NCBI GenBank assembly: GCA_021806295.1
Contig: JAJZXS010000016.1
Location: 1 to 59,330 of the forward strand
DNA length: 59,330 bases
Reading direction: 5' to 3'
Source of the DNA: Thermoplasmata archaeon
Lineage (GTDB): Archaea > Thermoplasmatota > Thermoplasmata > Thermoplasmatales > Thermoplasmataceae
The notes under the pieces: generated by a model
Told to the model about the DNA's origin: nothing
The model's database searches: none
The model's input: only the letters and a program-made list of their open reading frames with translations
Translations under genes and position numbers: made by a program
Shown here: positions 8,192-32,714 of the stretch, piece by piece
How the letters are laid out: each line of letters opens with the position of its first letter
Numbering within the stretch: the stretch's first letter is position 1

Positions 8192-8645
8192 TTTTATCCT
8201 CCTTTATTAATGATTCTGTCTTTAGATGCGAAACAAGCTGCGCTCTTGAAGTGAAGGATCCGCTTTTTATGGTTCTGTAATATTTACGATAGGTAGTTCT
8301 ATCAATGGCATCTTTTTCTCTTAATGTCTTTAGTTCATTTCTCAATGCCCTTATGGTTGTTATCCATCTTCTCTTCCTGGGATACCTTGCATATTTTGTG
8401 CCCCTGACAGATCCGGGTCCTCTTCTCCTCCCTTTGCTTAGCTGGTTTATTCTCTTCTTTAATCTCTGATTTGAATGGTTTTTCTTATCCTTTTTCTGTA
8501 TAACGTTGAGCCCGATTAACTTTTTAATATCATCTCTTGACGTGGCATCCAGTACCTTATCAAGGTTATTTGTATCTATCCATACCCTTGATTTGCCTAC
8601 TTTCAGCTCATCCGCCGAGATTTCCCTTATACTGGACATTTTCAT
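8169..8645 (-). CDS. rpl19e: Ribosomal protein L19e (eL19)
   Basis: Archaeal/eukaryotic large-subunit protein with no bacterial homologue. [18 protein letters not shown] at the N-terminus, then the very basic [20 protein letters not shown] segment and [18 protein letters not shown], are typical. The ATG at 8645 has a GGTGG site just upstream. The ATG at 8639 (two codons later) is a weaker alternative. The start overlaps the rpl32e stop by 4 nt. Confidence 0.95.
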
Positions 8646-9046
8646 TTTACCACCTTATTAAACACATGTATACCAAGATTCTCGGCCTCTGATTCAATAT
8701 CAATTCTTTTCTTATAACCTACTGTTGAGGCTATTCTTGCTCCTTCCAGATCAGGGTTTATTAGAGACAGCTCTTTAACATTATGTACAAGAACCTCCCT
8801 GAAGCCGGATGGATGCAATCCACGCACAGCCTTCGGTGTTCTGTAACCCGGGCCCACAACCGGTGGCCTGTAGCCAAGATGTGTCCTGAGCTTTGAATGC
8901 TTTCCTCTTGGCCTTCTCCATGAATCGTCAAATTTCTTGTATCTGAACCATTCCTGTCTGTGGAATTCTACTCTTCTTCTATTTGCTTCATTTTTCTTTT
9001 TTAACAGTATTTTCTGTTCCTTGGTTAATAAGGGTTTATAGCTCAT
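8642..9046 (-). CDS. rpl32e: Ribosomal protein L32e (eL32)
   Basis: Archaeal/eukaryotic large-subunit protein. The core has [20 protein letters not shown], then [21 protein letters not shown] and [17 protein letters not shown], followed by the C-terminal [18 protein letters not shown]. At 134 residues it is a compact archaeal form. It overlaps rpl6 by 11 nt. Confidence 0.95.
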
Positions 9047-9581
9047 CTGGATTCACCCCCTTTAATAGATATATTCCATCCTGGAAGACCCTTGCATCGA
9101 AGTGCTTTATGTATGTTGCCCTTTCTATATTTGATGCAGTATCTCCCATATCTCTCTTATCTATGCCCTCGATAATAACACGGTCTCCTCTTACAGATAC
9201 CTTGCAATTCTTGATTTTTGCAATTCTTGGTGCCTTGCTACCCAGGAAGTTCTCCACATAAAGAAGGTCCCCACGAACTGAAACTCTCATGGGAAAATGG
9301 GTGAAATCTATTTTCATTTCATATTTGAACCCCTCAGTAACCCCATGAAATACAAGCTTAAGTTCGGAATACCATGTTCCTACTATGCCGTTAGTGAATT
9401 TATTTTCCTTGCTAACAGCTATCATTATGGAATTTTCCTTTTTGTAGACCTTTACATACTTGTCCCTGAAATTCCTGGATGTTGCACCAAGCTTGCCTTT
9501 GACATTGATTACTGTTCCATCAATGTTCACGTTTATTCCATCTGGAATTTTTAATTCCATTCTATCTTTCCAATTTATCAT
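9036..9581 (-). CDS. rpl6: Ribosomal protein L6 (uL6)
   Basis: Large-subunit protein near the factor-binding site. [21 protein letters not shown] is the first L6 repeat. The second ends in [20 protein letters not shown] and [21 protein letters not shown]. The ATG at 9581 is preferred because GAGGTGG lies 6 nt upstream. The internal ATG at 9560 (MELKIPDG) resembles other family starts but has no such site. Confidence 0.95.
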
Positions 9582-18019: not shown

Positions 18020-18634
18020 CTATGAGCAATTATAAGGTTCTCCATGAGACGGCAGTATGGTTACAGGGCATAAATCTTTAATTTTGTGTAGGGACTCTCT
18101 AGCATCTTCCATATTCTGCGTGAACATGGGGTCAATCTTAAATTTTTTTCTCTTAATAGTAAATGCATCACCAACGAATATTGCGTTTTTCTCTTTATAA
18201 TATATGGATACATTATCCTGAGAGTACCCTGGCGTATCTATAACTTCCAGGAAATCAATTTCCATTTTATTATAAGAATATACGTGCTGAATTCCCTCAA
18301 ATCTTAACCCCTTTCCTTCTATTTCCAGAATTCCCTTTAATTTAGGGCCATTTTTCATGGTTCCCATGCCGCGTTTAGGCACATATATTTTAGGATTGTA
18401 AGTATCGTAAATATCACGCAATGCACCTACATGAATGTAATCTACAGCGGTTATCAACACATAGTCGGGAGAACTACCAGTTGCACTATAATAATCCATT
18501 ATTTTATTGAAGTCTGCCTGTATCCCGGCATCTATCTGAATGGTAGTACCATTACGTTTTAGTACATATGTATGAACAACCGTGCCAGGTATCATATCGA
18601 TGGTCTCAGGAAAATTAAAAACAATTTTAGACAA
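18020..18634 (-). CDS. Metallo-beta-lactamase-fold protein lacking the usual metal motif
   Basis: The fold is suggested by TIQIDAGI near the N-terminus, then LITAVDYIHVGAL where active enzymes have T-H-x-H-x-D-H-x-G, then DTPGYSQDNVSIYY, AIFVGDAF and a terminal LPSHGEP. The first two histidines and the aspartate of HxHxDH are not present, so hydrolase activity is doubtful. The start is a TTG at 18634. GGAGGT lies 7 nt before it, and the only nearby ATG is in another frame and gives a 14-codon dead end. The gene is the last of the oxidase operon, 32 nt after ctaB. Function unknown; a non-catalytic or altered-metal role is inferred. Confidence 0.75.
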   Translation of the reverse strand: MSKIVFNFPETIDMIPGTVVHTYVLKRNGTTIQIDAGIQADFNKIMDYYSATGSSPDYVLITAVDYIHVGALRDIYDTYNPKIYVPKRGMGTMKNGPKLKGILEIEGKGLRFEGIQHVYSYNKMEIDFLEVIDTPGYSQDNVSIYYKEKNAIFVGDAFTIKRKKFKIDPMFTQNMEDARESLHKIKDLCPVTILPSHGEPYNCS

Positions 18635-18666
18635 TACATTTACCTCCTATCACAAATATATTAAAA

Positions 18667-19533
18667 TTATATAAAAGGGTATATTATTATGACGAGCAAA
18701 AGAATCAATAGATACATATTTGAAAATCCGAATGCACTTCTGAAATATTTTTTGTTATATTGCTTAAAGGCTGGTCTGGCGACGTAGTAGAGTAAGATAG
18801 CATCCATGATTACTGCTATAGGCAGATATGCAAGTCCAAGTTTAATTGCGGGTACTAGGAATGGTATAAGAGAGTAAAAGACAAGTATTACCGTATTGAC
18901 GATAATCCAGAATTCAGTTTTTTTAACACCAACCATTGCAGGTAACATTGGAACCTTACTAGATTTATAATCATCAACATTATTTATGGAAAGATTCCAG
19001 AAGTGAGTGGGTGTCCACATGAATACAAGGAAAGCTAGAAATAGCGATGTAAGTGAGACCGAATTTGTTAGGGCTGCCCATCCTGCAAGGGCAGGAAAGC
19101 CACCTGCTATTCCACCTATGACAATATTAAGGCTAGTCCTCCTTTTAAGAAATACAGTGTACAAAAATACATAACTAAGGAACCCTCCAAAGATAAATAA
19201 TGCTGTCAGTAAATTTATGAATAATGAGCTAACTGCGAATGATACAATAATCATAATGAGAGCGATAGAGAATATATAATTTCTTGTGTTTTCATTTAGT
19301 GTGCCTGATCTGGACCTGGTCCTCTTCATTTTTGTATCTATATCCATATCATAGATGTTATTGAACATGCTTGCTGACATAGAGCCAAGAGTTCCAGTAA
19401 GTATAAGCAAGAATAACAACATTGGATGAGAGAAACTGCCCGGTGCTAGAATAAAAGCTGTGACGGCAACTAAATCTATTAAAATCGTAATTTCCAGTTT
19501 AGTTATTTTCATGAAGTTTGCTAATTTACTCAT
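18667..19533 (-). CDS. ctaB: Protoheme IX farnesyltransferase (heme O synthase)
   Basis: Adds a farnesyl-type tail to heme B to make heme O, the precursor of heme A. It is a UbiA-superfamily membrane protein with about nine hydrophobic segments. The first prenyl-diphosphate motif is NNIYDMDIDTKMKRTRSRSG (NDxxD-like, with the TRxR typical of CtaB). The conserved LRRTSLNIVIGG-like region appears as LKRRTSLNIVIGGIAGGFPA. FMWTPTHFWNLSINNVDDYK holds the second motif. At 288 residues it has family length. GGTGA precedes the start. Its position after coxB shows that it serves this oxidase. Confidence 0.95.
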   Translation of the reverse strand: MSKLANFMKITKLEITILIDLVAVTAFILAPGSFSHPMLLFLLILTGTLGSMSASMFNNIYDMDIDTKMKRTRSRSGTLNENTRNYIFSIALIMIIVSFAVSSLFINLLTALFIFGGFLSYVFLYTVFLKRRTSLNIVIGGIAGGFPALAGWAALTNSVSLTSLFLAFLVFMWTPTHFWNLSINNVDDYKSSKVPMLPAMVGVKKTEFWIIVNTVILVFYSLIPFLVPAIKLGLAYLPIAVIMDAILLYYVARPAFKQYNKKYFRSAFGFSNMYLLILLLVIIIYPFI

Positions 19534-19581
19534 ATTTAGTCACCCTGCTTAAAGTAATAATTTAAGATAAAATAAAAATAT

Positions 19582-20409
19582 TTATGCACCAGCTGATGGT
19601 GGTGCTGTTGTGCCATTATAGTAGTTGTTAGGTCCGTAGTTTTCAGAATACCCGTCAAGGTGGAATTTCTCTACCATCTCACCGTGTACTGTTGTGTTTA
19701 ACCAGCTTTCATACTGTGTTTTAGGTAACACAAATGCCGGACCCCTCATATGGGCATGTCCGAGTCCGCAGAGCTCTACGCACTCAAAGTGGAATTCCCC
19801 TGTCTCTGTAATATTGGTCCATATGTAATTATAATGCCCCGGAAAAGCGTCAACTTTAGAGACATTAATTAGATAGAACGAATGCATTACATCAACACTG
19901 GTTACATTGAACTGAATCGGAGTATCTGCTGGCAGTACAACAAAGTGCCTTGATGATGCGCCATTGGGATATATGAATATCCACTGCCACTGGTAGCCTA
20001 TTACCTTAATATCCATATAGTGGTGGGCATCTGTGGGAGCTGATGGTGCGGCCCCTGCAACCCTTATTCCGTATGCAGGTGGTAGATCGTAGACCAACAG
20101 TGACAGTAATATAAGCACCACGAAGAGAACGAATAACTTGAAAATGGTTTTATTTCCACGTTCAAGGTTTTCAATTCTTCCCGGCCTCATATCTACATCC
20201 TTATTGTACTTTGAATTTTCAAAGTCATCCGCTTTTTTTGGCTTGTAACTTTTTAGGAATACATACACATACCATAGAGCAAAACCTGCCCCTATTAAAA
20301 TACCAGGGACGATGTATGCTAAGAATATGGATGTAATCTCCGCTCCCGTAATGGAGCCTCTTGGTATCAGATGATACACACTTGGTAATATATTATATAG
20401 TTCTAACAC
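19582..20409 (-). CDS. coxB: Heme-copper oxidase subunit II (CuA domain)
   Basis: Electron-entry subunit of a terminal oxidase. Hydrophobic segments at about residues 27-50 and 90-110 anchor it. The exposed cupredoxin domain has GYQWQWIFIYPNG, DVMHSFYLINVSK with the CuA histidine, and CVELCGLGHAHM, which supplies both cysteines, the second histidine and the methionine. A complete binuclear CuA site is therefore predicted. I prefer the GTG at 20409, 5 nt after GGTGA, over the GTG at 20418 that overlaps that site. The gene directly follows the sulfocyanin-like gene. Confidence 0.94.
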   Translation of the reverse strand: MLELYNILPSVYHLIPRGSITGAEITSIFLAYIVPGILIGAGFALWYVYVFLKSYKPKKADDFENSKYNKDVDMRPGRIENLERGNKTIFKLFVLFVVLILLSLLVYDLPPAYGIRVAGAAPSAPTDAHHYMDIKVIGYQWQWIFIYPNGASSRHFVVLPADTPIQFNVTSVDVMHSFYLINVSKVDAFPGHYNYIWTNITETGEFHFECVELCGLGHAHMRGPAFVLPKTQYESWLNTTVHGEMVEKFHLDGYSENYGPNNYYNGTTAPPSAGA

Positions 20410-20419
20410 TTTTCTCACC

Positions 20420-21043
20420 TTATTTTATTGTATAGTACGGTACATGAACCGAAGAGCTAACTATTACAAATACGTACATCCCTGCCTCTGCATGGGTGGT
20501 TAATCCGCACACTGCCCAGTAATGGCCTGGTTGTGTGTCATTCCACCATATGGATCTGTAATGTGCAACGTTTCCATACCATATTGGATCTATTGTACCC
20601 GTACTATTTATGACCTTTTGGACATGCACACTGGTATGTGCCCATATGGGCCCACGTGCCCACTGTGATTTATATGGAAGTTCGAATTTAAGTGTATGTG
20701 GCTTAACCTCATAATTTGTCATATTGGCATGTATATCTGCATTAGCAGGCAGATATATGGTCATAGCACCATAGGACGTACCGTTGAAATTAAATGGATA
20801 TGCGTTGGGATGACCATTTCCCTCTCCCCATGCAGCAAGTGAAAGGTTCACTATTTGAACCTTTGACCCGTTGACGGTGGTATTATAGTACGGGATTGCC
20901 TTGTAGCTGACCTTGCCCTGGTCCGACATAACTGTATTCGTTGGCTGGTAAGAAGCTACAGTTATCCCAATGGCCGCTATTAGTACTATAGCTATGGCCA
21001 GAACCGCAAACGCTGCCTTTGTTACTGGTTTCAACTGAACCAC
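20420..21043 (-). CDS. Sulfocyanin-like blue copper protein
   Basis: Probable membrane-anchored electron carrier. Residues 9-30 form a single hydrophobic anchor, leaving a cupredoxin domain outside the cell. NGTSYGAMTIYLPANADIHA and TNYEVKPHTLKFELPYK match the sulfocyanin/rusticyanin pattern and give the first copper histidine. The C-terminal VCGLTTHAEAGMYVFVIV supplies Cys, His and Met, completing a type 1 site. Several N-x-S/T sites fit a glycosylated surface protein. In Ferroplasma and Sulfolobus such proteins carry electrons to oxidases, and Fe(II) oxidation is a plausible role here (inference). It starts at a GTG overlapping the upstream gene by 13 nt. Confidence 0.88.
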   Translation of the reverse strand: MVQLKPVTKAAFAVLAIAIVLIAAIGITVASYQPTNTVMSDQGKVSYKAIPYYNTTVNGSKVQIVNLSLAAWGEGNGHPNAYPFNFNGTSYGAMTIYLPANADIHANMTNYEVKPHTLKFELPYKSQWARGPIWAHTSVHVQKVINSTGTIDPIWYGNVAHYRSIWWNDTQPGHYWAVCGLTTHAEAGMYVFVIVSSSVHVPYYTIK

Positions 21044-21258
21044 CTTCCCATAAATACCTGGAGAAATAGCCAGAGGCTAAACCATATGGCTATTATGATT
21101 ACAGCCACAGCATACGGGTTTTTCCATATGCCCACTTCTCCATATTCAAGGTCGTCGTCCCCCAGTTCCATATCCACATCTTCATAACTATACGAAGATG
21201 CCACTCCAGTTTTATTCTTGCTTATTGTTTCTGCATTTTCTTTATTTATATTATCCAT
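21031..21258 (-). CDS. Small single-span membrane protein of the oxidase operon
   Basis: A 75-residue protein with an acidic N-terminal half (DVDMELGDDDLEYGEVG) and one hydrophobic segment at about residues 47-70 (NPYAVAVIIIAIWFSLWLFL). Its place between the I+III fusion gene (9 nt away) and the sulfocyanin-like gene (13 nt overlap) suggests an accessory oxidase subunit, analogous to the small subunits of other terminal oxidases. No family was recognised, so the role is inferred from context only. Confidence 0.72.
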   Translation of the reverse strand: MDNINKENAETISKNKTGVASSYSYEDVDMELGDDDLEYGEVGIWKNPYAVAVIIIAIWFSLWLFLQVFMGRWFS

Positions 21259-21267
21259 TTTTTCACC

Positions 21268-23775
21268 TCATGCTATGAATGCAACAGTGGTAAACACTGT
21301 TGTAAGGAATACAAACGCTACAAACCACATTATAACGTCCGCACTTGTTGCAGTTCTGCCCCAAAGGAACTTTTTGGAATACTTGACCCTTACTGCATAA
21401 CCGATCATTACTGCTATCACACCTATTCCAAATAGCAAGTCCATTAAAGATATAAGCCAGTACATAGAGGCTATAGGATTGTTCGCTGTTGCACCCCCAA
21501 GACTTAAAGCAGAGTACGAGTTGATATTAACTAGTGAAAGCAGAGATGTTATAATGAATATTATTCCAAATACAGCTCCTACAGCCATATAACTTGCACT
21601 CTTTCCTGGGGATTTCTTTATAGCGCCATATAATGATCCCCATGCAAGTAGGGCGGCTATTCCTATGGCAGCTATGGAAATGTATATGTAAATAGATGCC
21701 AGTGATGGGAAGAACCATGTTACTGGGTCATTTCCTTCTACGTATGGAGATACTGACTGAAGTTTTAACCATTCAACCATTCCATAGAATGTAGCCATCC
21801 AGATCATATCTCCAGCCAAGAATATCAGCATACCAAGCCTTGTGTTGTTGAATCCTTTTGTTACTGGATCTTTCTTGTACGTTGGAGGAACATTTGGCGA
21901 TTTGAGTTTGTAATCATCATACATCCATCCAATAGTTCCAACCAGGAACAGTGCAGCTGCCACTGCCACTATTGCATATCCTAGATAAGCATAGAATATT
22001 CCGAATGCATAGGGTTTGTACCCCATCATTGCCACTACTGCACCTATGAATCCTATTACCACTCCAAGTGCGATGTATAATGGCCTTGTAGATAATTCGA
22101 CTTTAGGTGGTTTTATAGGTTTATTCTTATCCAGTAACAGGTCTCTGTTATCCTCTCCGCCAACATATGGCTCATAATCAAAATTATAGTACTTCGGTGG
22201 GTTTGTTGTGAACCACACAAATCCTGCAGTGGCTTTGTATGGGTTCTGATCTGTTAATGGCGCATGTTTTTTCATGGAATATGCAAAGTTTGCGAACATT
22301 ATCAGGAACGATAAACCGAAGATAAATGCTCCAACTGTGGATATTTCATTGAATATAGTATAACCGAAACCGGACTGATATGTATATACCCTTCTTGGTA
22401 AATCGTAGAGGAAGAACATTGGAAAATAGAGCGTATTAACCCCTATGTACGCAATTGCCCAGTGTATCCTTCCCAGTGTTTCATTATACATTTTTCCTGT
22501 GAACTTTGGGAAATAATAATACAGATTTCCCATTAGCCCCATTACGGCCACACCAACCATGAAATAATGGAAATGTGCAACGACATAATAGTCTCCATGA
22601 ACAATAGTATCTATAGCAAGTGAAGATTGTGTAACGCCTGTTATACCACCGATCATGAAGGATGTAGATGCTGCAAGTGCAAATAGTATGGGTGTCTGGA
22701 ATTTGTGTTTTGCTCCTAGGAGTGTTGCTATCAATCCAACTATCAACATTCCGGTAGGTATAGATATAGTTTCTGTGAATACACTAGTTGCCATTAACCA
22801 TGCAAAGACTATACCGGTCATAAATGTGTGATGAAGAAAAACCATAACACTATCAACTGATATAGCACCCATTGCTGCTATCATCCATTTTTTCAGATAA
22901 GGGGCCCTGTGACCTAAATTCGATAGGTAATCAAACATTGCCCCGGTACCAGGTAGTAGAAGTAAATACACCTCCGGATGCCCAAAGTACCAGAATAGGT
23001 TTTCCCACATAAGAGCACCTCCGTATGTTGAAATAAATCCACTTAATCCCAGAAGGTTTGAGACAACAAGAACGAAGAATAGTGCACTTATTTCAGGGAA
23101 TACAAACCATGATATCATTGCAACCCACAGTATGGCCCACACAAATAATGGTAGATTCATTAACCTAAAACCACGTGCCCTGGCCTTGAAGACAGTAGCT
23201 ATAACCTCCGTCGAGGCAATGATTGTACCAAGCCCTCTCACCACCACTGCGGCAGCAGCCGTATCAGCCCCTATATACGGTGTAAACTTAAATGATGATA
23301 ATGGCTGATAAACTGTCCATCCTGTATCGAGATTTCCGCCAGGAAGGAAGAATCCCATCCAGAGAAGTATACCACTGAATAAGTATAACCAGTAACCCAG
23401 GGCATTAATCCTTGGGTATATCATATCTCTAGAACCAATAGCAAGCGGTACCAAATAAATACCAAATCCAAAACCTAGTGGACCAAGGAACCATATTAGC
23501 ATTGTAAGGCCATGTATGGTTACAAGCTGATTATACTGAAGTGCGTCCAGAAATCTTCCGGAGAATAGACCATAATGAACAAGGTCATATCTTGGTATTG
23601 CCAGCTGTACTCTCATCAAGAGCGCTAGAACACCGCCACCTATAAAGAAAACCAGAGATGTCAGTATATACAGCAGCCCTATTTGTTTGTGATTTGTAGT
23701 GAAAATCCAGCCTCTGACTGAATTGTATATCCTGTTATTCTTTTCATATAATTCATCGTTACTACCGACTTCCAT
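21268..23775 (-). CDS. Heme-copper oxidase subunit I fused to subunit III
   Basis: Catalytic subunit of a proton-pumping oxygen reductase, 835 residues. Residues 20-500 are subunit I: heme ligand H88 in TIHGLTMLIWF, GHPEVY with H266 and E268 (Cu-B ligand and D-channel glutamate of A1-type enzymes), the H315-H316 pair in FLHHTFMTG, and H401/H403 in VVAHFHYFMVG. After a linker, residues 630-835 hold the helices of subunit III, beginning FNNTRLGMLIFLAGDMIWM. Such I+III fusions occur in SoxM-like and some bacterial oxidases. It heads the operon with a TATA box at 23795-23802. Confidence 0.95.
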   Translation of the reverse strand: MEVGSNDELYEKNNRIYNSVRGWIFTTNHKQIGLLYILTSLVFFIGGGVLALLMRVQLAIPRYDLVHYGLFSGRFLDALQYNQLVTIHGLTMLIWFLGPLGFGFGIYLVPLAIGSRDMIYPRINALGYWLYLFSGILLWMGFFLPGGNLDTGWTVYQPLSSFKFTPYIGADTAAAAVVVRGLGTIIASTEVIATVFKARARGFRLMNLPLFVWAILWVAMISWFVFPEISALFFVLVVSNLLGLSGFISTYGGALMWENLFWYFGHPEVYLLLLPGTGAMFDYLSNLGHRAPYLKKWMIAAMGAISVDSVMVFLHHTFMTGIVFAWLMATSVFTETISIPTGMLIVGLIATLLGAKHKFQTPILFALAASTSFMIGGITGVTQSSLAIDTIVHGDYYVVAHFHYFMVGVAVMGLMGNLYYYFPKFTGKMYNETLGRIHWAIAYIGVNTLYFPMFFLYDLPRRVYTYQSGFGYTIFNEISTVGAFIFGLSFLIMFANFAYSMKKHAPLTDQNPYKATAGFVWFTTNPPKYYNFDYEPYVGGEDNRDLLLDKNKPIKPPKVELSTRPLYIALGVVIGFIGAVVAMMGYKPYAFGIFYAYLGYAIVAVAAALFLVGTIGWMYDDYKLKSPNVPPTYKKDPVTKGFNNTRLGMLIFLAGDMIWMATFYGMVEWLKLQSVSPYVEGNDPVTWFFPSLASIYIYISIAAIGIAALLAWGSLYGAIKKSPGKSASYMAVGAVFGIIFIITSLLSLVNINSYSALSLGGATANNPIASMYWLISLMDLLFGIGVIAVMIGYAVRVKYSKKFLWGRTATSADVIMWFVAFVFLTTVFTTVAFIA

Positions 23776-24146
23776 GTTAAATAATTTCTATGTAAAATAT
23801 AAGAGTAATTATAGAATATTTTCGTAACTTATTCCCATATAAATTTAAAAACTTAGCATATTATGCTATTTTCATTCATGGATGTGTTGTATATCAACAT
23901 ATAATTAGATAAAACGCAATATATGTATATTTAACGTGAACTTAAGATAAGATGTTAATGCCTGTAAATATACTAAAACGAGAAGAACATAAAATCTTTA
24001 CAAATTTATAATTTGATACAAAAATTCGAGATGATATAATAGAACCATAGAATCTTAGACACAGAGTCTGCCAAATTGATGCCATTGAGGGATAGTGTGG
24101 TCTACAATACAAATCTCTAAATAACATTTTTAACTTATTGCAACAA
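23776..24146. promoter_or_regulatory. Intergenic region between divergent oxidase operon and DUF929-like gene
   Basis: A gap of 371 nt with no convincing gene. It holds the oxidase TATA box and two perfect dyads. TAGCATA-T-TATGCTA is at 23854-23868, and TGTTG-TATAT-CAACA is at 23885-23899. Both lie upstream of the TATA box, where an activator or repressor could bind. The right-hand part (about 23940-24130) is AT-rich with no further structure that I can see. Confidence 0.5.
23795..23802 (-). promoter_or_regulatory. TATA box of the oxidase operon
   Basis: On the minus strand TTATATTT starts about 27 nt before the coxA ATG at 23775. This predicts transcription from, or next to, the start codon, that is, a leaderless mRNA. 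No ribosome-binding site precedes the ATG, which agrees. Confidence 0.65.
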
Positions 24147-24908
24147 ATGAGCCAAAAAGAGCATTATAATAAAAAGTTACTGGCATTTTTTATAGCTTTC
24201 TTTATAGTTATAACTTTTCTTGCAGTTTACGGTGCTGAACATTATAACGGACATGATGAAACAGTAGAGCTTGAACAATACTGCAAAATATCAGATAATG
24301 ACCTGGTTAAGGACAATACCAGTACATGCTTGTACTATATAACATGGGATGGAAGTCCTACTGGTAATGCTGGATCCTGGGCGTTATATGAATTTTTAAA
24401 TGACCATGGATATAATATGGATAAAAATGGTTATGTTAAAACATCTCAATCTATGGATAATTTTGAGTATAACAGTACCCCAGGAGTAATATTCAATAAT
24501 TCTACATATACTGTAGATTATAGTGGGCACACAACTATAATTAAACCAATATACATTTATGGTGAGAACCTCACAAATAACACTACAATAGCCGCTGGCC
24601 TACAAAAATTGAAAGGAGATGTGCCTAGTGGAGTATATAACGAGGTTAAAATATATACAACAGAGGCCATAGTTGATGGGCTAAGCATACCAAGCGACAA
24701 TATCAGCCAGTACCATCACATTAATTCTGTTACATTAATAAATGGACCGGCAGGAGCATATATATTTAATGGATACCTTATAAACCCAACAAATTTTGAA
24801 CATGAGACACCACATCAAGTTATAACAGATTTAAGGGACAACCCATCATATAAGCCAGTAGGAGATGCGGTCAAAGGTCTAGAAACATATATCAAGGATT
24901 CTGATTAA
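24147..24908 (+). CDS. DUF929-like membrane-anchored exported protein without the usual cysteines
   Basis: One N-terminal hydrophobic segment (about residues 11-30) is followed by an extracytoplasmic domain rich in N-x-S/T sites. YYITWDGSPTGNAGSWALYEF aligns by eye with the DUF929 segment, where relatives often carry a C-x-x-C-type motif next to Ser/Arg-Trp. Here that position reads PTGNAG, so thioredoxin-like redox chemistry at this site is unlikely. The only cysteines are two near the N-terminal part of the domain (EQYCKI and STCLYY). I start at the ATG at 24147; a TTG three codons earlier is in frame. It is transcribed away from the oxidase operon. Role unknown. Confidence 0.68.
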   Translation: MSQKEHYNKKLLAFFIAFFIVITFLAVYGAEHYNGHDETVELEQYCKISDNDLVKDNTSTCLYYITWDGSPTGNAGSWALYEFLNDHGYNMDKNGYVKTSQSMDNFEYNSTPGVIFNNSTYTVDYSGHTTIIKPIYIYGENLTNNTTIAAGLQKLKGDVPSGVYNEVKIYTTEAIVDGLSIPSDNISQYHHINSVTLINGPAGAYIFNGYLINPTNFEHETPHQVITDLRDNPSYKPVGDAVKGLETYIKDSD

Positions 24909-24971
24909 TTATTTACCAAAATTTTAATTATAAGATTATTTATAAAGAGGACTTGCCTATAATTTAAAGGT

Positions 24972-25058
24972 ATGAGAGAAATAAGGGAAAATTCCAGATA
25001 TAACAAGTATCCTCGTAAAAGAGAAAAATGGATAAAGATGATCTATTGCACAAAATGA
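24972..25058 (+). CDS. Possible 28-residue basic peptide
   Basis: An ATG at 24972 opens 28 codons for a very basic peptide (MREIRENSRYNKYPRKREKW, then IKMIYCTK). TTTATAAA at 24939-24946 is a good TATA box, 33 nt before the ATG, and AAGG lies just before the start. No homologue was recognised. It could be a real small protein, the remnant of a larger gene such as a transposase, or chance. The rest of the 213-nt gap shows nothing else. Confidence 0.25.
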   Translation: MREIRENSRYNKYPRKREKWIKMIYCTK

Positions 25059-25121
25059 TGCACGTTTATAAAAATTATTTGATTTGGATTAACCTGGTCG
25101 CTCAAATTATCTATGCTGGCA

Positions 25122-25343
25122 TTATGATTCCTTATTTTTATCTCTGAACTTTAGAATTATCATTATAGCAATAAATGCTAGTGCTATAGCTAACATAAAT
25201 AAGTCTACAGCATATCCATCCGCATAAAATCCAGAAACAATAGAGCTGGTAGAATATGGTTTAAATGCCAGCAAAAGTCCGAATATACCCATCATAGGCA
25301 CGGAAAAGAATCTATTTTTTATTTCTTTACCCTGAGTTTTCAT
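25122..25343 (-). CDS. Small two-span membrane protein
   Basis: A 73-residue protein with hydrophobic segments at about residues 13-30 and 44-65, a basic start (MKTQGKEIKNRFF) and a charged tail (KFRDKNKES). No family recognised. It is one of three mini membrane proteins clustered between the oxidase operon and the NapH-like operon, so a link to respiration is possible but unproven. Confidence 0.6.
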   Translation of the reverse strand: MKTQGKEIKNRFFSVPMMGIFGLLLAFKPYSTSSIVSGFYADGYAVDLFMLAIALAFIAIMIILKFRDKNKES

Positions 25344-25412
25344 AATTATGTATAATTTTGTATATTACTTAAAAGTTATTATAAAATATATTTATATTTT
25401 AAATATACGGGT

Positions 25413-25631
25413 TTAAATTTTATTTGAACCATTATTCTCTGGGCCATGCAGTGATATCTGGGTGGAGGCTAATGCTGTAAGTCCGAGGCCAATTATAAAG
25501 GCTGCTACCCCAATCACACCGGTGTATGATGCGTATGGCAATAATCCATAAATTGATAATATCGCTAATCCGAATCCACCGATCAATAACGAAAGTCCGG
25601 CCGTTAAAAGTTTCATTCCTTTAGGTAACAT
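25413..25631 (-). CDS. Small two-span membrane protein
   Basis: A 72-residue protein beginning at the ATG at 25631 (MLPKGMKLLTAGLSLLIGGF). A GTG three codons upstream is an alternative. Two Gly-rich hydrophobic segments cover about residues 8-28 and 37-57, followed by a short polar tail. No family recognised. Its downstream neighbour on the same strand is the other two-span protein at 25122, 69 nt away. Confidence 0.6.
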   Translation of the reverse strand: MLPKGMKLLTAGLSLLIGGFGLAILSIYGLLPYASYTGVIGVAAFIIGLGLTALASTQISLHGPENNGSNKI

Positions 25632-25736
25632 ATTTATCACTGAGTGATTATAATTTAATTCTATTTAATATTTTTTATAGAAATCATTTGCCTACATACG
25701 TTTATATTAAAGTTTGAATATATTCATTAATAAGTA

Positions 25737-25744
25737 TTTTATAC
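25737..25744 (+). promoter_or_regulatory. TATA box for the 51-residue membrane protein
   Basis: TTTTATAC starts 27 nt before the ATG at 25764, the spacing expected for a leaderless archaeal transcript. It supports the reality of the very short gene that follows. Confidence 0.5.
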
Positions 25745-25763
25745 ATACAGATAATATGTACAT

Positions 25764-25919
25764 ATGACGTTTGACATAACATCTGCATTAATAACACTGC
25801 ATGCAGCGGCTTATAATCCCAATTCAGAGACCCTGTTCTTGCTTGTTATAATGGGTATGTGTGCTGCAATAGCTATAGGAGCAACAATATTTGTAAAGGA
25901 ATTTATACTTAGAAGGTAA
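25764..25919 (+). CDS. 51-residue single-span membrane protein
   Basis: The ATG at 25764 opens 51 codons. The N-terminal half is polar to amphipathic (MTFDITSALITLHAAAYNPN). It is followed by one hydrophobic helix (LFLLVIMGMCAAIAIGATIF) and a basic end (VKEFILRR), so the C-terminus is likely cytoplasmic. A TATA box lies at -27. No family recognised. It resembles the small subunits that accompany respiratory complexes, which is inference from size and place. Confidence 0.55.
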   Translation: MTFDITSALITLHAAAYNPNSETLFLLVIMGMCAAIAIGATIFVKEFILRR

Positions 25920-26009
25920 ACAAGGAGTAAAGATATTTTCTATAAGTTATAAATATTACAGGTAAATATTTTTATTACAAAACTAGTTTTTAAATAATTA
26001 TTGAACATC

Positions 26010-27548
26010 TTATTTTTCTGCTGGAACAACCATCTTAGAATTATGGTTTTTTACCAATATTGGTGTTTCTGGAATAGAATATCTATACATTGTATCTATT
26101 GTGCTAAGCCACATAAACGGAAGTGAGACTGCCCATAGAATTGCAGAGAAATAAAGCTGCTGTTTAATTCCGAAGAATGGAAATATGTCTGTAAGCGATA
26201 TAATTGATATGTAGAAAAATACAAGTGCGGTCATGCTGAACATCATTGAATTAAATTCTATATATGCAGCCTTTAGCTTTTCCAGGCTGAAATACACAAG
26301 ATATGTTAGAATACCTGCCCCAATACCCATTATATTCATCATTATATAAATATTATAGTTAGAATATGCGTAGTAAGCCAGTGAAGGTACGAACCATATA
26401 AACATCATAACAGATGCTATAGTCATTAAAGCTGCCTTTACTTTTACAGTTTTTATGAATGGTTTCATTCCCAATTTTGTTATGGCATACATGAGGAAAA
26501 TACCAGAAATAAACATCAGTATATTTACCCCATAAAAGAATAGCATAGAGGTTTTTTGCAAATGGAAAAATATTCCAATCACTTCTAGCACTGGAATCAG
26601 CATAACAAAGAATATAGCCAGCAACGGAAAATAGTTACTGTTTCTCAAATTTTTGATGGAGGATACAAATTTTATTTTTGCCCTACGATTAATAAAAACA
26701 CTGAGCATAAAGTTACTCAACAGCAGCAATAGAATACTTTCCGAGAGTAATGTAGTGCTAATAACAGTGGCCACCACTGCAGCTACAGTTGGCAGTATGG
26801 CTGTAAGACCCTCGCACTGGCAACTTAAGGCTGAAACACCACCGCTTATAGCTGGAGTAACAAGATTTGTTGCCTGTCTTCTTGCGCGTGATTTTTTCCC
26901 CAGAATTCCGGTATTTAAATTCACAATGCTAAAAATAAGAAAGTAGTTCTCAGTTAAAAGTGCTGCAAGTATTATATAGAGTATGATGGACTGTAATCCC
27001 ATTGTAAAATATATATAATTAACACGCATTATAATACCATAGTAAAACAGGTATGGAACCTTTGATGAAGAAAAATCTGCGTATATTGAGTCGACAACTA
27101 TTTTCGTAGGTTCCACCGGAACAGATATTACAAAAAATCTGGAAATAATTAACATAATAAATAGAATTAATATGAATGCGGCCCCACGGTAAAACATTGG
27201 CTTACTTTTTTTGAAATATAGATTATCAATTATATCAGTGTAAAAAGCCAGTGTAAGAAGGATCATTATTTCCATTAATGGATACACTATATAGGTAAAG
27301 AGGAGAACTATAAATGTAAATAATCCAATAAACAGGAAATACAAATAAATCCTATTTATTACTGAATTTTTCCTGAAAAAAACCAGAAGTGGGAATATTA
27401 TATAGGGTATTAACAGGGCTATAAATTGGTATACAGAAGGATAGAGTCTGGTTGAAAATACCACGAATATTCCTGATATGGCGGAATAGATAAACAGATA
27501 TAAGGTAAATACTGAAATTATTATACTTTCTACTGCTTCTCGCTTCAT
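26010..27548 (-). CDS. Large polytopic membrane protein of unknown function
   Basis: A 512-residue protein with about 13 hydrophobic segments and very few charged loops. The one distinctive stretch is GGVSALSCQCEGLTAILPTV near residues 235-255. It has two cysteines separated by one residue, at the edge of a Gly/Ala/Ser-rich segment preceded by a basic loop (GKKSRARRQ). This could be a substrate or metal site, but no family was recognised. It is divergent from the NapH-like gene, with only 93 nt between the starts, so the two may share regulation. Confidence 0.7.
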   Translation of the reverse strand: MKREAVESIIISVFTLYLFIYSAISGIFVVFSTRLYPSVYQFIALLIPYIIFPLLVFFRKNSVINRIYLYFLFIGLFTFIVLLFTYIVYPLMEIMILLTLAFYTDIIDNLYFKKSKPMFYRGAAFILILFIMLIISRFFVISVPVEPTKIVVDSIYADFSSSKVPYLFYYGIIMRVNYIYFTMGLQSIILYIILAALLTENYFLIFSIVNLNTGILGKKSRARRQATNLVTPAISGGVSALSCQCEGLTAILPTVAAVVATVISTTLLSESILLLLLSNFMLSVFINRRAKIKFVSSIKNLRNSNYFPLLAIFFVMLIPVLEVIGIFFHLQKTSMLFFYGVNILMFISGIFLMYAITKLGMKPFIKTVKVKAALMTIASVMMFIWFVPSLAYYAYSNYNIYIMMNIMGIGAGILTYLVYFSLEKLKAAYIEFNSMMFSMTALVFFYISIISLTDIFPFFGIKQQLYFSAILWAVSLPFMWLSTIDTMYRYSIPETPILVKNHNSKMVVPAEK

Positions 27549-27641
27549 TATATTTTTTGATTATTTCTAAGTAAGGATAAGTTTAATTATAGAACAATAT
27601 CTACAATTAACTAATAATAAAATTGTTTAATCGAGAATTAC

Positions 27642-29855
27642 ATGCTTGATATTGTATTTTTAATAGGTATCATAACAATTATAGTTATGGTAACGTATAT
27701 CATTTTTGTATTTTCATACCTAATCAGGCATAAATATGACATATCATTTTTAAAGGTAGCCGCCATTGGGATATTTACTGCAATGATGGCTAGCATGCTT
27801 GACGCATTCCTGCTTTACATAACAACAGTACATGATTTTATCGATACAGCACTGGCTTTTTCTTTTGGGATGATTTTAATGTCCCAGCCAATAGTGGCTA
27901 CCTTTGTAGGAGTATTGCATGGTGGCCTGGACAGAAAAGGTTTAACCCGGGCAAATTCCACTGCGTTCACAGGGCTAATAATATGGAATGAAGTTTCCAT
28001 GGGATTGTTTCTGTTCTATTTATTCAACCCGACTATAATACATTTTGATTACTATCATGCCTTCTATTCACTTGATTTTGTTTCCGATCTAAGTAATGGA
28101 ATTAATACAATATATTTCCTTGTCCCTATGAGCGTAGAAATGTTCTTCCTTTATCTGGTTTATAAACCTAAGGGAATGCATAAATACGCATCAATTTCTA
28201 TATTTACTATGGATCTATTTGCGCCTACCCTGCTGGGAAACAATAAATTTGTATTTATAGGTGGCGTCGGGGAAACTGCAGTAATGATAATATTTATGAT
28301 TATATTCTTCGAGTATATAGCAAAACACCGGTTAATGCTGCCGGAGGACGATGCTTACCATATTAAAATGATTTTTATCGATTACCTGTTAATGGGGGCC
28401 GGAACGTTTATCGGGACTCTGCTTTTAGATCCATTTGGCCTTGCCTGGATATTTTTTGCAATGGCAATCGTATTTGGGATGATCTACTATTTTCAGAGTA
28501 TGTTCTCAATACAGAAACCAAAAGTTGAGGAAAAAACAAGTAATAATGTGGTAGTGAAACGGAAGAAAATAGTAAACAAACCTGCAAGACTCATATTTTT
28601 TGTTCTTGTCGCTTCCTTTGTTTCTGAACTTTTCATGGCCGGTTCAATGGATTTTGCCACGTATAATTATCTGCCATTTTTCCGCGTGATTGATACCTTG
28701 CCAGTTTATCATGGAGCCAGTGTGGCAGGTTTCTACTCCCGTGATGTTTTAAAAGAGTTTGTATCGGCTTTTGTTCCAGCAAGCACCGGGCCGTATAATC
28801 TGATTGTTTTTTACGGTATGGTTGGAGGTGTATACAAATTTACACCGGTTTCAACATTTATAGAAATTCTTTATGTAATAGGCTACATAACAGACTCTCC
28901 AACATTTCTTTTGATTATGGGAATAGAGATGATAACTCTAGTTGTGGCACAGATACGTATATTGAAGGACAGGGGAAAAAAGATCAATTTGATGTTCGCA
29001 ATTGCAGCCTACCTCCTTTATACAACTATAGGCCCTAATTTTCTGAATCCTTTATATTATAACCGGCTTCCATTCTGGGCAAATACTGGTGCACAGGCAG
29101 CACTTTATCCATATCTCGTTCTCCCACTCTTAGGATCTTATGCATTATATGCGCTTCTTGCCCTGCTTTTCGGGAGGAGGTCGTACTGCTCAACACTATG
29201 CCCATCCGCTGTGATGTACGGCGGAACTCTTGGGCAGTCTATGATAAAATACAATTACGAGTCCAAAGTAAGCAGGAAACAGAGAACAAGTTATTTCACG
29301 GATTCTGTCCTGTTTATAGCTACGGGTTCATGGATTTGGGCAATACTTGCCTCTTTATTTTCGTATATGTATACAACTACAGGAAGCCTGAGGTTTAGTA
29401 TATATGGAATTGATCCTTCAGTTTTCTATTCATATTTTATATGGAATATTTTATGGTATGTTTTCTTTTTCTCCATACCGTTTGTAGGCATGAGCCCGTG
29501 CAGAAAATATGGATGGTGCTCAACCGGAACGCTTGTAGGATTTTTCAGTGTCCTTGGATTTTTCAAACTCAAGGTAAAGGATAAAAATGTATGCAGAACA
29601 TGTAAGACAAAGGACTGTGCAACATCATGTGAGGTTGGTTTATCCACAATGCCTGGCTCTTTTATCAAGAGTGGGCAGTTCAAAAGTGTAAAATGTGTAG
29701 GCTCTGGAGACTGCATAAGAGCGTGCCCCTATGGAAATATTTATTTTTATGATGTGAGGAATTACCTACGTGAAAAATTTGGACATAAGAATAAAGAATT
29801 AAATAATGATGACGGATTTGTAATGGTGAAAAAAAACACAGAACTTAAAAAGTAA
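27642..29855 (+). CDS. NapH-like polytopic membrane iron-sulfur protein
   Basis: A 737-residue membrane protein. The first 290 residues and the middle part are hydrophobic helices of no recognised family. The C-terminal third resembles NapH/CcoG/NosR-type proteins: RRSYCSTLCPSAVMYGG, then SPCRKYGWCSTGTLVG. A ferredoxin-like region follows, with CRTCKTKDCATSCEVG and VKCVGSGDCIRACPYG, which could hold two [4Fe-4S] clusters. It probably moves electrons between the membrane pool and a soluble or exported partner. It forms an operon with the heme A synthase-like gene 12 nt downstream, tying it to the respiratory island. The donor and acceptor are unknown. Confidence 0.75.
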   Translation: MLDIVFLIGIITIIVMVTYIIFVFSYLIRHKYDISFLKVAAIGIFTAMMASMLDAFLLYITTVHDFIDTALAFSFGMILMSQPIVATFVGVLHGGLDRKGLTRANSTAFTGLIIWNEVSMGLFLFYLFNPTIIHFDYYHAFYSLDFVSDLSNGINTIYFLVPMSVEMFFLYLVYKPKGMHKYASISIFTMDLFAPTLLGNNKFVFIGGVGETAVMIIFMIIFFEYIAKHRLMLPEDDAYHIKMIFIDYLLMGAGTFIGTLLLDPFGLAWIFFAMAIVFGMIYYFQSMFSIQKPKVEEKTSNNVVVKRKKIVNKPARLIFFVLVASFVSELFMAGSMDFATYNYLPFFRVIDTLPVYHGASVAGFYSRDVLKEFVSAFVPASTGPYNLIVFYGMVGGVYKFTPVSTFIEILYVIGYITDSPTFLLIMGIEMITLVVAQIRILKDRGKKINLMFAIAAYLLYTTIGPNFLNPLYYNRLPFWANTGAQAALYPYLVLPLLGSYALYALLALLFGRRSYCSTLCPSAVMYGGTLGQSMIKYNYESKVSRKQRTSYFTDSVLFIATGSWIWAILASLFSYMYTTTGSLRFSIYGIDPSVFYSYFIWNILWYVFFFSIPFVGMSPCRKYGWCSTGTLVGFFSVLGFFKLKVKDKNVCRTCKTKDCATSCEVGLSTMPGSFIKSGQFKSVKCVGSGDCIRACPYGNIYFYDVRNYLREKFGHKNKELNNDDGFVMVKKNTELKK

Positions 29856-29867
29856 ATGGTGAGGTGA

Positions 29868-30644
29868 ATGAATGTTATTTTGTATTATTATTTTGTATTC
29901 CAGGTAATTCTTGCTTTTGGAATAGTTGTGGTTGGCGGGACTGTTGAGGGATATGGATACGGGTTATCCCTGGGGACAAAATGGCCATATACTAAGGATA
30001 TGCCATTGAAAGCAAAAGCTGGTGACCCGGAGGTCTGGCATAGGATACTTGCCACATTACTTGGCGTAAATGCAGTAATTATGGTTGTTTTAATACATGG
30101 TTCCCTGGAAATAACAGGTTTAATTCTTGTAGTTATAACTGCACTTCTGGGCATGGCCACACTTTATACTCTGGCCGGAAAAGCACCATCAGTAGTTCAG
30201 GGTTTACATGATATTCTGGCCTACTCTACTGCTCTTACATATCTTTTAATTGTTTATCCTGTGGCTGGAAATGTTCTCTCTTTGATTTATAAGAATATAC
30301 CCCTGTACTTTTTCTTTGCAGTCATATATATGGGAGGTATGACAACAGGAGAAAGAGGGTACCAGAAGGCCATTGGATACTTCAAAATACCAAAAACAAA
30401 GGCACAGTGGATATGGACCATACATGGACTGGCAGTATTGCTATTCCTGTTCTCACTTATATTATTCTTCTTCAATTACAATGTAGCCCTCATAATAATC
30501 GGTTTCCAGATCATTGTGGGAATAATAGTATTCATTTCCGTCAATAAATCAGCATCAAGACCGGGATTCATAGTGCCAATGCATCAGTTTTTTACCATAC
30601 TAATTGTACTTTCCATAGTATTCCAGTTAAGTGTTTTCAGATAG
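29868..30644 (+). CDS. ctaA: Heme A synthase-like membrane protein (CtaA/Cox15 family)
   Basis: Predicted to oxidise heme O to heme A. It has about eight hydrophobic segments in 258 residues. Four conserved-looking histidines in the expected helices are EVWHRILATL, QGLHDILAYS, TIHGLAVLLF and VPMHQFFTIL, matching the paired heme-binding sites of CtaA. GYGYGLSLGTKWPYTKDMPL lies in the first outer loop. A GGTGA site precedes the ATG. Together with ctaB it supplies the heme for the oxidase at 21-24 kb. The sequence is divergent, so the assignment is family-level. Confidence 0.8.
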   Translation: MNVILYYYFVFQVILAFGIVVVGGTVEGYGYGLSLGTKWPYTKDMPLKAKAGDPEVWHRILATLLGVNAVIMVVLIHGSLEITGLILVVITALLGMATLYTLAGKAPSVVQGLHDILAYSTALTYLLIVYPVAGNVLSLIYKNIPLYFFFAVIYMGGMTTGERGYQKAIGYFKIPKTKAQWIWTIHGLAVLLFLFSLILFFFNYNVALIIIGFQIIVGIIVFISVNKSASRPGFIVPMHQFFTILIVLSIVFQLSVFR

Positions 30645-30722
30645 GTTAAATAAATTTATTTTTTATGTTATAAATGGGTTTTATATAATATTGCTCAGCT
30701 AAAAATTATTTATAAAAATAGC

Positions 30723-31349
30723 TTATTTTATTGTTTTCTGGATAACCTGCCTCAACTGCCGCCTCAAAAGAAGGTCAAGAGTTGTGGGCGGTATATCCAG
30801 TGTTGAAGAAAGTTCCTTAAGGCCTATTTTTTTGGGCACGTCGAAATATCCGCGTTCAAATGCCTCTTTCAGTATATATTCAGATTTAACATTAATATGC
30901 CTTCCATTATATATTCTTATATTACTATCCTTGATATCATACGTTTCTTTTAATGATTCATCTATGTGCCTTATTTTATTATAGTTATTGACATTCATTT
31001 CCCAGAATATATTTCCAGAATAATCTATCCTTTCAAGTTTTATTTTATTTGATGGGCTCATGAGTTTACGCCTCATTAGTTCAACCAGAGGGCAGCTCTT
31101 CGTTAAAATGTTTACTGTTACACAGTTATTCTCCCTTCCAACTATCTCAATTTCATAAGAATGCGGGTAATTTTCCAGGTATTCCACAGATTTATCCAGG
31201 AGGTCTTCAGATTCCGCATATATAGCCAATGTTTCATAAACATAATTATCACGCAGTTCCTGGTTTACTATCTTAATTCGCACATTATAATCGCTTATCA
31301 GCTGTGATGCGAAACATTTTTCATATTTAAATGAGTACAGTATCTGCAT
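30723..31349 (-). CDS. HTH_10 (Bat-like) transcription regulator
   Basis: A DNA-binding protein of the archaeal bacterioopsin-activator type. The C-terminal 50 residues have the HTH_10 pattern: ILKEAFERGYFDVPKKIGLKE, then LSSTLDIPPTTLDLLLRRQL. The N-terminal 150 residues form an unidentified sensory or dimerisation domain, with CFASQLIS and KSCPLVELMRRKL segments. It is convergent with the heme A synthase-like gene at the end of the respiratory island. This makes it a candidate regulator of that island (inference). A TATA-like TTATAAAT lies about 22 nt before the ATG. Confidence 0.8.
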   Translation of the reverse strand: MQILYSFKYEKCFASQLISDYNVRIKIVNQELRDNYVYETLAIYAESEDLLDKSVEYLENYPHSYEIEIVGRENNCVTVNILTKSCPLVELMRRKLMSPSNKIKLERIDYSGNIFWEMNVNNYNKIRHIDESLKETYDIKDSNIRIYNGRHINVKSEYILKEAFERGYFDVPKKIGLKELSSTLDIPPTTLDLLLRRQLRQVIQKTIK

Positions 31350-31541: not shown

Positions 31542-32714
31542 ATGATGCGGGTATTTGACAGAAGCCAGTTCAGAATCCTTTCCCTGGTTTCTTTGACAAT
31601 AGGATTAAGAACACTTGGCCTTTTTATGGTTTTGCCCATATTTACGCTTTATGGAGAAAAATTTACTGATTCTTATTTGCTTATCGGAATAGCACTGGGG
31701 GCTTATGGAATAACAATGGCTATTTTTCAGACACCGTTGGGGAGGCTATCAGATCGTTATGGAAGGAAGTTAATTATATCCATAGGCATTTTAACATTTG
31801 TAATAGGCAATCTGATATGTGCTGATCCAATTAATATTTATGGACTTATACTTGGCAGGCTAGTTGAGGGGGCGGGTGCAGTAAGTTCAGCTGGAATAGC
31901 ACTGGTACACGAAAGTGTTCCTGTAGAAAGGAGGAATATTTCTGATGCTATTATAGGTGTAGCCATAGGTTTTTCATTTATGGTCGGTGTTATTATAGGA
32001 CCTTTACTGACAACAATTATTAATTATTCATTTATATTCATTATAGCCGCAGTTATAGGAATAGCCTCATTTATTCCTCTGTTAATGGTGAGGGAGGCCA
32101 AAAAGGAAAGGATGTTTAAGATAAAGAGCAGGATTGATTCTAAACTTGCAGTAATATCTATCATTAGCTTTTTTATCTATTTTTATATGATTGTTTTCTA
32201 CTTTTATCTTCCATTGTACTCACTTAGATATTTTCCCGTTAACAGGTTCTATGAATTCCTGATACCTGTGGTTATTATAGCTGGAATTATAGGACTCGCC
32301 ATTGCAAGACCGGCAGACAAAAATAAAACTGTATTATTTTCGCTTGTATCATTGGTCGTTTTATTGATAAGCATTCCATTATTCTTCCTTAATAATAGAG
32401 TCAACGATGTGACATACTTCGGTTTGAGTGTTGCGGCATTCTACTCCGGATATATAATAAGTGAAACGGTGTTCCCTACACTTATAACAAGACTGGCCCC
32501 CAGGAACAGTTATGGAGGAAATCTTGGATTTTATACATCTATGCAGCATGCAGGTGTATTTTTTGGGGCCCTGTTTACAGGGCTATTAATAGTTAAGATA
32601 AATCTGGATACATCCATTATGGTTCTTCTTATTGTATCTTTTATATTCAGCATAGTCCTTCTGTATTTCATTACACATTTCCGGGAAATCTATCTAGCGA
32701 GGAAAAACGAATAA
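31542..32714 (+). CDS. Major facilitator superfamily transporter
   Basis: A 12-span secondary transporter of 390 residues. The family motif between segments 2 and 3 is present as GRLSDRYGRKLIIS. A second conserved element, GRLVEGAGAVSSAGIALVHE, matches the drug-export branch in segment 4. Loops are short and basic on the cytoplasmic side. The substrate cannot be told from sequence. Two adjacent ATG codons (31542 and 31545) are both possible starts. It stands alone, with AT-rich flanks. Confidence 0.88.
   Translation: MMRVFDRSQFRILSLVSLTIGLRTLGLFMVLPIFTLYGEKFTDSYLLIGIALGAYGITMAIFQTPLGRLSDRYGRKLIISIGILTFVIGNLICADPINIYGLILGRLVEGAGAVSSAGIALVHESVPVERRNISDAIIGVAIGFSFMVGVIIGPLLTTIINYSFIFIIAAVIGIASFIPLLMVREAKKERMFKIKSRIDSKLAVISIISFFIYFYMIVFYFYLPLYSLRYFPVNRFYEFLIPVVIIAGIIGLAIARPADKNKTVLFSLVSLVVLLISIPLFFLNNRVNDVTYFGLSVAAFYSGYIISETVFPTLITRLAPRNSYGGNLGFYTSMQHAGVFFGALFTGLLIVKINLDTSIMVLLIVSFIFSIVLLYFITHFREIYLARKNE

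Follow-up and report, generated by a model that had tools for sequence, protein, structure and literature searches.

A gene cluster for sulfocyanin and an aa3-type oxidase has been described in Acidiplasma YE-1 and Ferroplasma acidiphilum and, in rearranged form, in Picrophilus, with genes labelled 'Fd' and COX15 among its members (PMC12524180 Fig. 4). In F. acidiphilum the sulfocyanin cluster lies on genomic island 1 (GI-1), and FAD_0146 (COG0348) is counted among the ferredoxins (PMC5473848). As summarized in a review, an 850-kDa sulfocyanin/aa3 complex purified from F. acidiphilum oxidizes Fe(II), and a Rieske/cytochrome b-type complex has been proposed for the reverse, or uphill, branch of electron flow (Castelle 2015, cited in PMC8280799). 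The Fox cluster of Sulfolobales shares with this system the trait of archaeal Fe(II) oxidation, and Ferroplasma has no fox homologue according to the same review (PMC8280799). In Acidiplasma, sulfur supports higher expression of the cluster than Fe(II) does (PMC12524180), so it is not iron-specific in that genus. Here we analyze the corresponding genes in a 59,330-nucleotide stretch of DNA (hereafter the window; contig JAJZXS010000016.1, assembly GCA_021806295.1) from the 1.47-Mb, 49-contig genome of a Ferroplasma, in which they occupy 18.0-31.3 kb between S10/spc ribosomal protein genes (to 17.7 kb) and a tRNA-Lys gene at 33.35 kb. The island is the known sulfocyanin/aa3-oxidase respiratory cluster together with its assembly genes: it shares coxAC, soxE, coxB, cyoE, 'Fd', COX15 and hypothetical genes with Acidiplasma, F. 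acidiphilum and Picrophilus, and is not new, because the core cluster has been published (PMC12524180 Fig. 4; PMC5473848). The available parts of those accounts give 'Fd' and the hypothetical genes no role, and describe neither the methionine (Met) signature, nor the M512 family, nor the class-wide pattern that we report here. These concern two membrane proteins, NapH737 (737 residues, probably the orthologue of FAD_0146) and M512 (512 residues), which, judging from conservation and gene order, have in our estimate an even chance of forming a module that handles copper for sites outside the cytoplasm (CuA, CuB and/or cupredoxin).

The closest described relatives of NapH737 fall into two groups. 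CcoG (FixG/RdxA) is a membrane-bound Fe-S protein that reduces Cu(II), its gene accompanying those of the cbb3 oxidase (PMC7558416), and NapH737 is, in the same way, a NapH-like membrane protein with two Fe-S clusters whose gene stands with copper-oxidase genes; CcoG, however, carries a C-terminal Ig-like domain that is absent from NapH737, and has no described Met-rich N-terminal domain. The NapH/MauN quinol dehydrogenase Fe-S proteins resemble NapH737 along residues 495-697, but are only about 255 residues long, whereas NapH737 has extra helices and no NapG gene was found beside its gene. M512 can be compared with Caa3_CtaG (PF09678) and DUF1404 (PF07185), with which it shares the oxidase-gene context and, in the case of DUF1404, a weak profile similarity of its C-terminal half; unlike them, it has an N-terminal half with a CQCE motif and no Pfam match. 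CtaG of Bacillus subtilis is thought to help assemble CuA, CuB or both (PMC13344008), and a 2020 review knew of only one archaeal Cu(II) reductase, CopZ of Archaeoglobus fulgidus (PMC7558416). These two genes may bear on how archaea load copper into extracellular oxidase and blue copper sites, which some lineages do near pH 1 with neither Sco nor CtaG.

The new element in the NapH737 family (in the window, 27642..29855, plus strand) is a predicted plane of Met and Glu residues in the N-terminal membrane domain. In an alignment of 49 homologues from several families, 16 columns within residues 1-370 reach at least 90% identity, nine of them Met and three Glu, a Met bias that the same column analysis did not find in neighboring gene families; over residues 1-300 the enrichment of Met has a hypergeometric P of 6e-10. 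The 13 conserved Met, about one per helix in the membrane part, lie on average 2.2 residues from the centers of hydrophobic segments; the mean for control columns of hydrophobic residues is 6.2, and none of 50,000 samples gave a distance as small. The Glu residues likewise sit mid-helix. No conserved His was found in this domain, whose conserved polar residues are Met and Glu. The pattern is kept separately in different families (families, genera, genomes and loci are coded f, g, G and L), mostly in 29/29 sequences of f1, the family of the window, and in 16-20 of 20 from f11 and f12; it is also largely retained where the N-domain is encoded on its own, in eight genes from other f1 genomes. Such standalone genes for the Met-rich domain (281-320 aa) adjoin that of a shorter NapH protein in further genera of f1 (L043, L054-L060). 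Three MxxxM pairs occur in NapH737 (48/52, 163/167, 426/430), an excess that taken alone is mildly unusual (P = 0.03); in CcoA, MxxxM serves as a copper motif (PMC8406296, PMC6362234).

The remainder of NapH737 is a NapH-type Fe-S part. The NapH-like Fe-S protein named by a first-pass annotation of this DNA holds good as a likeness, since residues 495-697 cover most of the TIGR02163 (NapH/MauN) profile (E 2.8e-10), but not as a family assignment, the score of 40.2 bits being far under the cut-off of 213. NapH737 shares 99% identity with a WH1.bin9 metagenome-bin protein and 83% with F. acidarmanus Fer1. Eleven Cys are invariant or near-invariant among the homologues, arranged as C516xxxC520P, C620x5C626, C651xxC654x4C659x3C663 and C685x5C691x3C695P. 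NapH and CcoG proteins are recognized by two CX3CP pairs and two complete 4Fe-4S motifs; NapH737 departs from both, with one CX3CP, C620x5C626 as its second pair, and a second ferredoxin motif that, here and in 48 homologues, always lacks its second Cys, leaving seven ferredoxin Cys (4+3). Because residue 688 is Ser, Val, Ala or Ile and never Cys among the tallied homologues, one Fe-S cluster may carry an open site with three Cys ligands only. A search of PDB sequences with NapH737 returned ferredoxin-type matches to the Fe-S tail and otherwise matches at chance level.

M512 (26010..27548, minus strand) is a multi-helix membrane protein and a candidate copper-site assembly factor. The window protein has no Pfam or NCBIfam match, its scanned relatives gave no Pfam match either, Caa3_CtaG PF09678 included, and a PDB sequence search yielded nothing beyond chance level. 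Across 28 sequences the invariant residues are C243-Q-C-E246 (the CQCE motif), N201 (preceded by E200), W385, M404, E431, P477 and W480. The C-terminal half aligns weakly with DUF1404 over 136 columns (hhalign score 36, probability 38%, P 3e-4), while the reversed alignment scored 16.5 and other membrane families at most 22. The CQC region aligns, again weakly (score 23), with the CC region of a protein encoded beside NapH in family f11, and the order of the two parts is that of two separate f11 genes, which suggests that M512 could be a fusion of f11-partner-like and DUF1404-like parts, weak as each individual alignment is. A protein of genome G044 matches both DUF1404 and Caa3_CtaG, so it bridges those families. 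The bridging reading frame (L094, 8705-10117) is apparently in the wrong frame over much of its length, the likely gene at the first DUF1404 match being a 443-aa frame at 8025-9356; at L094 7332-9356 a cupredoxin-type gene precedes this CtaG/DUF1404-like fusion, and COX1 was not found in G044. The partners of NapH differ by family, with a GACCST motif in f12 (L076, 7195-8499) and an ASCC motif in the 270-aa membrane protein of f11 (L066, 8570-9400), and the Cys pair in each is reminiscent of CQCE in M512. We rejected M512 as a homologue of the f12 partner F3, as homology was undetectable. A profile search of Ferroplasma found CtaG absent and, for Sco, only sub-threshold matches of 153-182-aa frames; Sco as a stand-in for M512 and NapH in oxidase-bearing genomes that lack them was also rejected, over-threshold matches being rare there too.

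We then considered the distribution of these genes in a 200-genome sample of the class Thermoplasmata. Strong NapH737 relatives occur in 61/200 genomes and COX1 in 75/200; of the 75 COX1-positive genomes 54 carry NapH, compared to 7 of the 125 COX1-negative ones (Fisher P about 1e-23, not corrected for phylogeny). The seven are five genomes of genus g3, G041 and G056, and the 21 genomes with COX1 and no NapH belong mainly to f24 and f25. M512 is encoded in all 27 genomes of f1 and nowhere else in the sample. Acidiplasma, other Ferroplasma and further genera have the same gene set, a recurrence far above chance. Counted by genus, M512 and COX1 lie within 10 kb of each other in 10 genera, M512 and NapH in 7, and NapH and COX1 in 6; all three are linked in Ferroplasma and five other genera, which upholds the earlier claim that the genes belong together. 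At eight loci, spread over six genera, the M512 gene is part of the oxidase gene cluster and shares 4-25 bases with ctaB, and A-type and B-type oxidase loci alike carry the M512/NapH module. In family f11, several genomes have NapH, COX1 and a cupredoxin-type gene together in a span of about 10 kb (PF06525 matches in G020, G040, G056 and G064), and the cluster also holds DUF1404 and the ASCC-motif membrane protein. Genus g3, probably Thermoplasma, lacks COX1, yet has genes for a secreted 236-238-aa protein, M512 and NapH in a row, a few kilobases from Rieske- and cytochrome-b-like genes. The secreted protein is SoxE-like (hhalign probability 72%), has CxxxCG as in CuA, lacks the second His and gives no Pfam match. 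Since M512 and NapH are kept in g3 beside a cupredoxin-like gene, their shared neighbor is a copper-type protein and not one particular oxidase. In one g3 locus (L053 of G082, probably T. acidophilum), NapH and M512 are both broken by frame breaks or stops and have possibly been lost together; the other g3 loci are whole.

The Met/Glu plane, the CQCE motif, the location in oxidase operons, the weak resemblance to DUF1404/CtaG and the cupredoxin-like neighbor in Thermoplasma lead us to favor copper handling over uphill electron flow. In such a module, electrons from the cytoplasm would reach the NapH-type Fe-S part, which would use them to reduce Cu(II), as CcoG does; the mid-membrane Met/Glu plane of NapH737 would bind the Cu(I) or hand it on; and insertion of copper into the oxidase or cupredoxin would be aided by M512, which bears a CxC motif and whose C-terminal half is CtaG/DUF1404-like. 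The order of these steps, the identity of the metal and its direction are inference. A broader proposal, that NapH737 represents a class-wide family of membrane cupric reductases with a Met-lined Cu(I) site which, with M512-type partners carrying a membrane Cys pair, make up a dedicated system that loads copper into oxidases and cupredoxins in archaea lacking Sco and CtaG, is one that we advance only tentatively. If copper handling is correct, two conserved 'hypothetical' genes of biomining archaea gain a testable function, and an F. acidiphilum gene annotated as a ferredoxin moves from electron transport to copper assembly. Several observations weigh against it. COX1 occurs without NapH in f24 and f25, and also in G166, where M512 is present; no copper or oxidase genes flank the f12 NapH in the stretches read; the DUF1404 similarity of M512, a protein without a Pfam match, is weak; and NapH relatives are often quinol-linked electron carriers. 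AlphaFold models of NapH737 and M512, built from shallow alignments, had mean pLDDT values of 34 and 43 and were discarded, so that a mutual facing of the Met residues is unproven.

The first-pass annotation had instead suggested, as an inference, that the NapH-like protein perhaps drives uphill electron flow. In a more general form, NapH737, with M512, would be an electron-transfer unit between the cupredoxin/oxidase level and quinone or cytoplasmic ferredoxin/NAD, uphill flow included. The kinship of residues 495-697 to NapH/MauN and the 11 conserved Cys for Fe-S clusters fit this explanation, as do the consistent proximity of f1 NapH, where linked, to respiratory or cupredoxin genes and the Rieske- and cytochrome-b-like genes near the Thermoplasma M512-NapH pair. 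We nevertheless consider it unlikely: it leaves unexplained the Met/Glu plane, for which electron transfer to NAD or ferredoxin has no need, no quinone or haem site was recognized, and the coupling of M512 to the heme O synthase gene is an assembly context. Uphill flow in particular gains no support from the occurrence of the module with B-type oxidases and its retention in Thermoplasma, and is assigned to the Rieske/cytochrome b-type complex in the published proposal as the review gives it (PMC8280799).

A role in moving, reducing or inserting haem O/A for the oxidase, in place of copper, would account for the overlap of M512 with ctaB and for the 12 bp that separate NapH737 from a heme A synthase candidate; it is made improbable by the retention of both genes in Thermoplasma, with a cupredoxin-like gene and without a heme-copper oxidase, by their presence with oxidases that lack a CtaA gene, and by a membrane domain that conserves Met and Glu and no His. 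Least probable of all is a system that takes up or reduces iron or a different soft metal and stands next to the oxidase by coincidence: transition-metal sites can be lined by Met, Glu and Asn (as in Nramp), and f12 copies of NapH lie away from oxidase genes, but the strong co-occurrence with COX1 and the cupredoxin neighbors in f1 and f11 speak against it.

The 13-kb island of oxidase, sulfocyanin, heme genes and NapH-like protein recognized in the first-pass annotation was confirmed by Pfam/NCBIfam profiles with curated cut-offs and by an open reading frame (ORF) check, in which all the genes it named between 18.0 and 31.3 kb are open at the positions given; the path it proposed from Fe(II) through sulfocyanin to the oxidase matches the one to the aa3 oxidase already described in F. 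acidiphilum (Castelle 2015, cited in PMC8280799). CoxAC, CoxB and SoxE are the oxidase and its blue copper protein, and CtaB makes heme O. Sulfocyanin SoxE (20420..21043, minus strand) passes the TIGR03094 cut-off (257 bits against 168.4) and conserves the type-1 copper ligands C179, H184, M189 and H116/H161 among homologues; a further SoxE match at 7050-7721 is spurious, the sequence there reading as ribosomal protein S5. Subunit II (19582..20418, minus strand) carries the CuA motif CxxxCGxxHxxM as CVELCGLGHAHM, with a COX2 domain over the PF00116 cut-off (55 bits) and a TIGR02866 score of 124.6 bits, below 147.7. The A-type subunit I, fused to a III-like tail (21268..23775, minus strand; PF00115 358 bits, over cut-off), has the D-channel Glu in GHPEVY, as expected of A-type; its tail gives no match to the Pfam COX3 model. 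The usual K-channel motif is PTGIK. In Ferroplasma and relatives the Lys position is Leu (Met in one relative), within PTGML, PTSML or PTGMM, and Lys does not occur. Subunit I is A-type (GHPEVY) in Ferroplasma, g2, g11, g12 and f11, and the subunits of the remaining f1 genera are short and B-type, with GHPIVY in the aligned ones.

Of the heme genes, which the first-pass annotation had called well founded, CtaB/CyoE (18667..19533, minus strand; TIGR01473 248 bits, cut-off 210) stands, whereas the heme A synthase candidate (258 aa; 29868..30644, plus strand), 12 bp downstream of NapH737 and published as COX15 (PMC12524180), matches no Pfam or NCBIfam family significantly; for PF02628 (COX15-CtaA) neither it nor any other place in the Ferroplasma genome gave a match at E <= 10. 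In an alignment the candidate conserves GGTVEGYGYGLSLGTxWP, ExxHR and further His at 114, 186 and 239, which by eye we take to be CtaA-like (GGxVExxGxGLSLG..WP, ExxHR, four conserved His). Its gene is present in all 11 f1 genomes with an A-type oxidase and in none of the 16 others, and this exact co-occurrence and the motif resemblance indicate that it likely converts heme O to heme A. In G178, CtaB lies inside a 583-aa open frame (L049, 4205-5956) that exceeds the usual length, which may reflect a gene fusion or a wrongly placed start codon.

The divergent M512 and NapH737 genes are separated by 93 bp (27549..27641), a putative operator or pair of overlapping promoters, midway in which lies a conserved inverted repeat, ATTATAGA-N6-TCTACAAT (27586-27607). 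The palindrome was rejected as a regulon signal, as the exact copy occurs at this site alone in the genome and loose matches are fewer than in the reversed control. The Bat-like regulator of the first-pass annotation is an HTH_10 (bacterioopsin-activator-type) protein (30723..31349, minus strand; PF04967 43 bits, over cut-off), kept beside NapH/CtaA. Three genes add to the earlier list. The DUF929 protein (24138..24908, plus strand; PF06053 109 bits) is secreted or anchored and has a conserved GSPTG/GSPFG; this GSPxG presumably occupies the place where a thioredoxin-type CxxC would be expected, and the protein is possibly redox-inactive. An MFS transporter gene (31542..32714, plus strand; PF07690) adjoins the stretch as a conserved neighbor; we rejected it as a CcoA-like copper importer, since CcoA-like importers conserve MxxxM and HxxxM, whereas its conserved Met are only at positions 1, 2, 59 and 147 and no MxxxM is conserved. 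A peripheral metallo-beta-lactamase-fold protein (18020..18634, minus strand; PF00753 54.5 bits) adjoins ctaB in locus L041 too. Finally, all four mini membrane proteins listed earlier are conserved in relatives and are real genes: a one-helix 75-aa protein between soxE and coxAC (21031..21258, minus strand; kept in L034 and L036), proteins of 73 aa (25122..25343, minus strand) and 75 aa (25413..25640, minus strand) that are each kept as far as L042, and a 51-aa protein (25764..25919, plus strand) with counterparts at 9 other loci (E 1e-30 to 7e-8).

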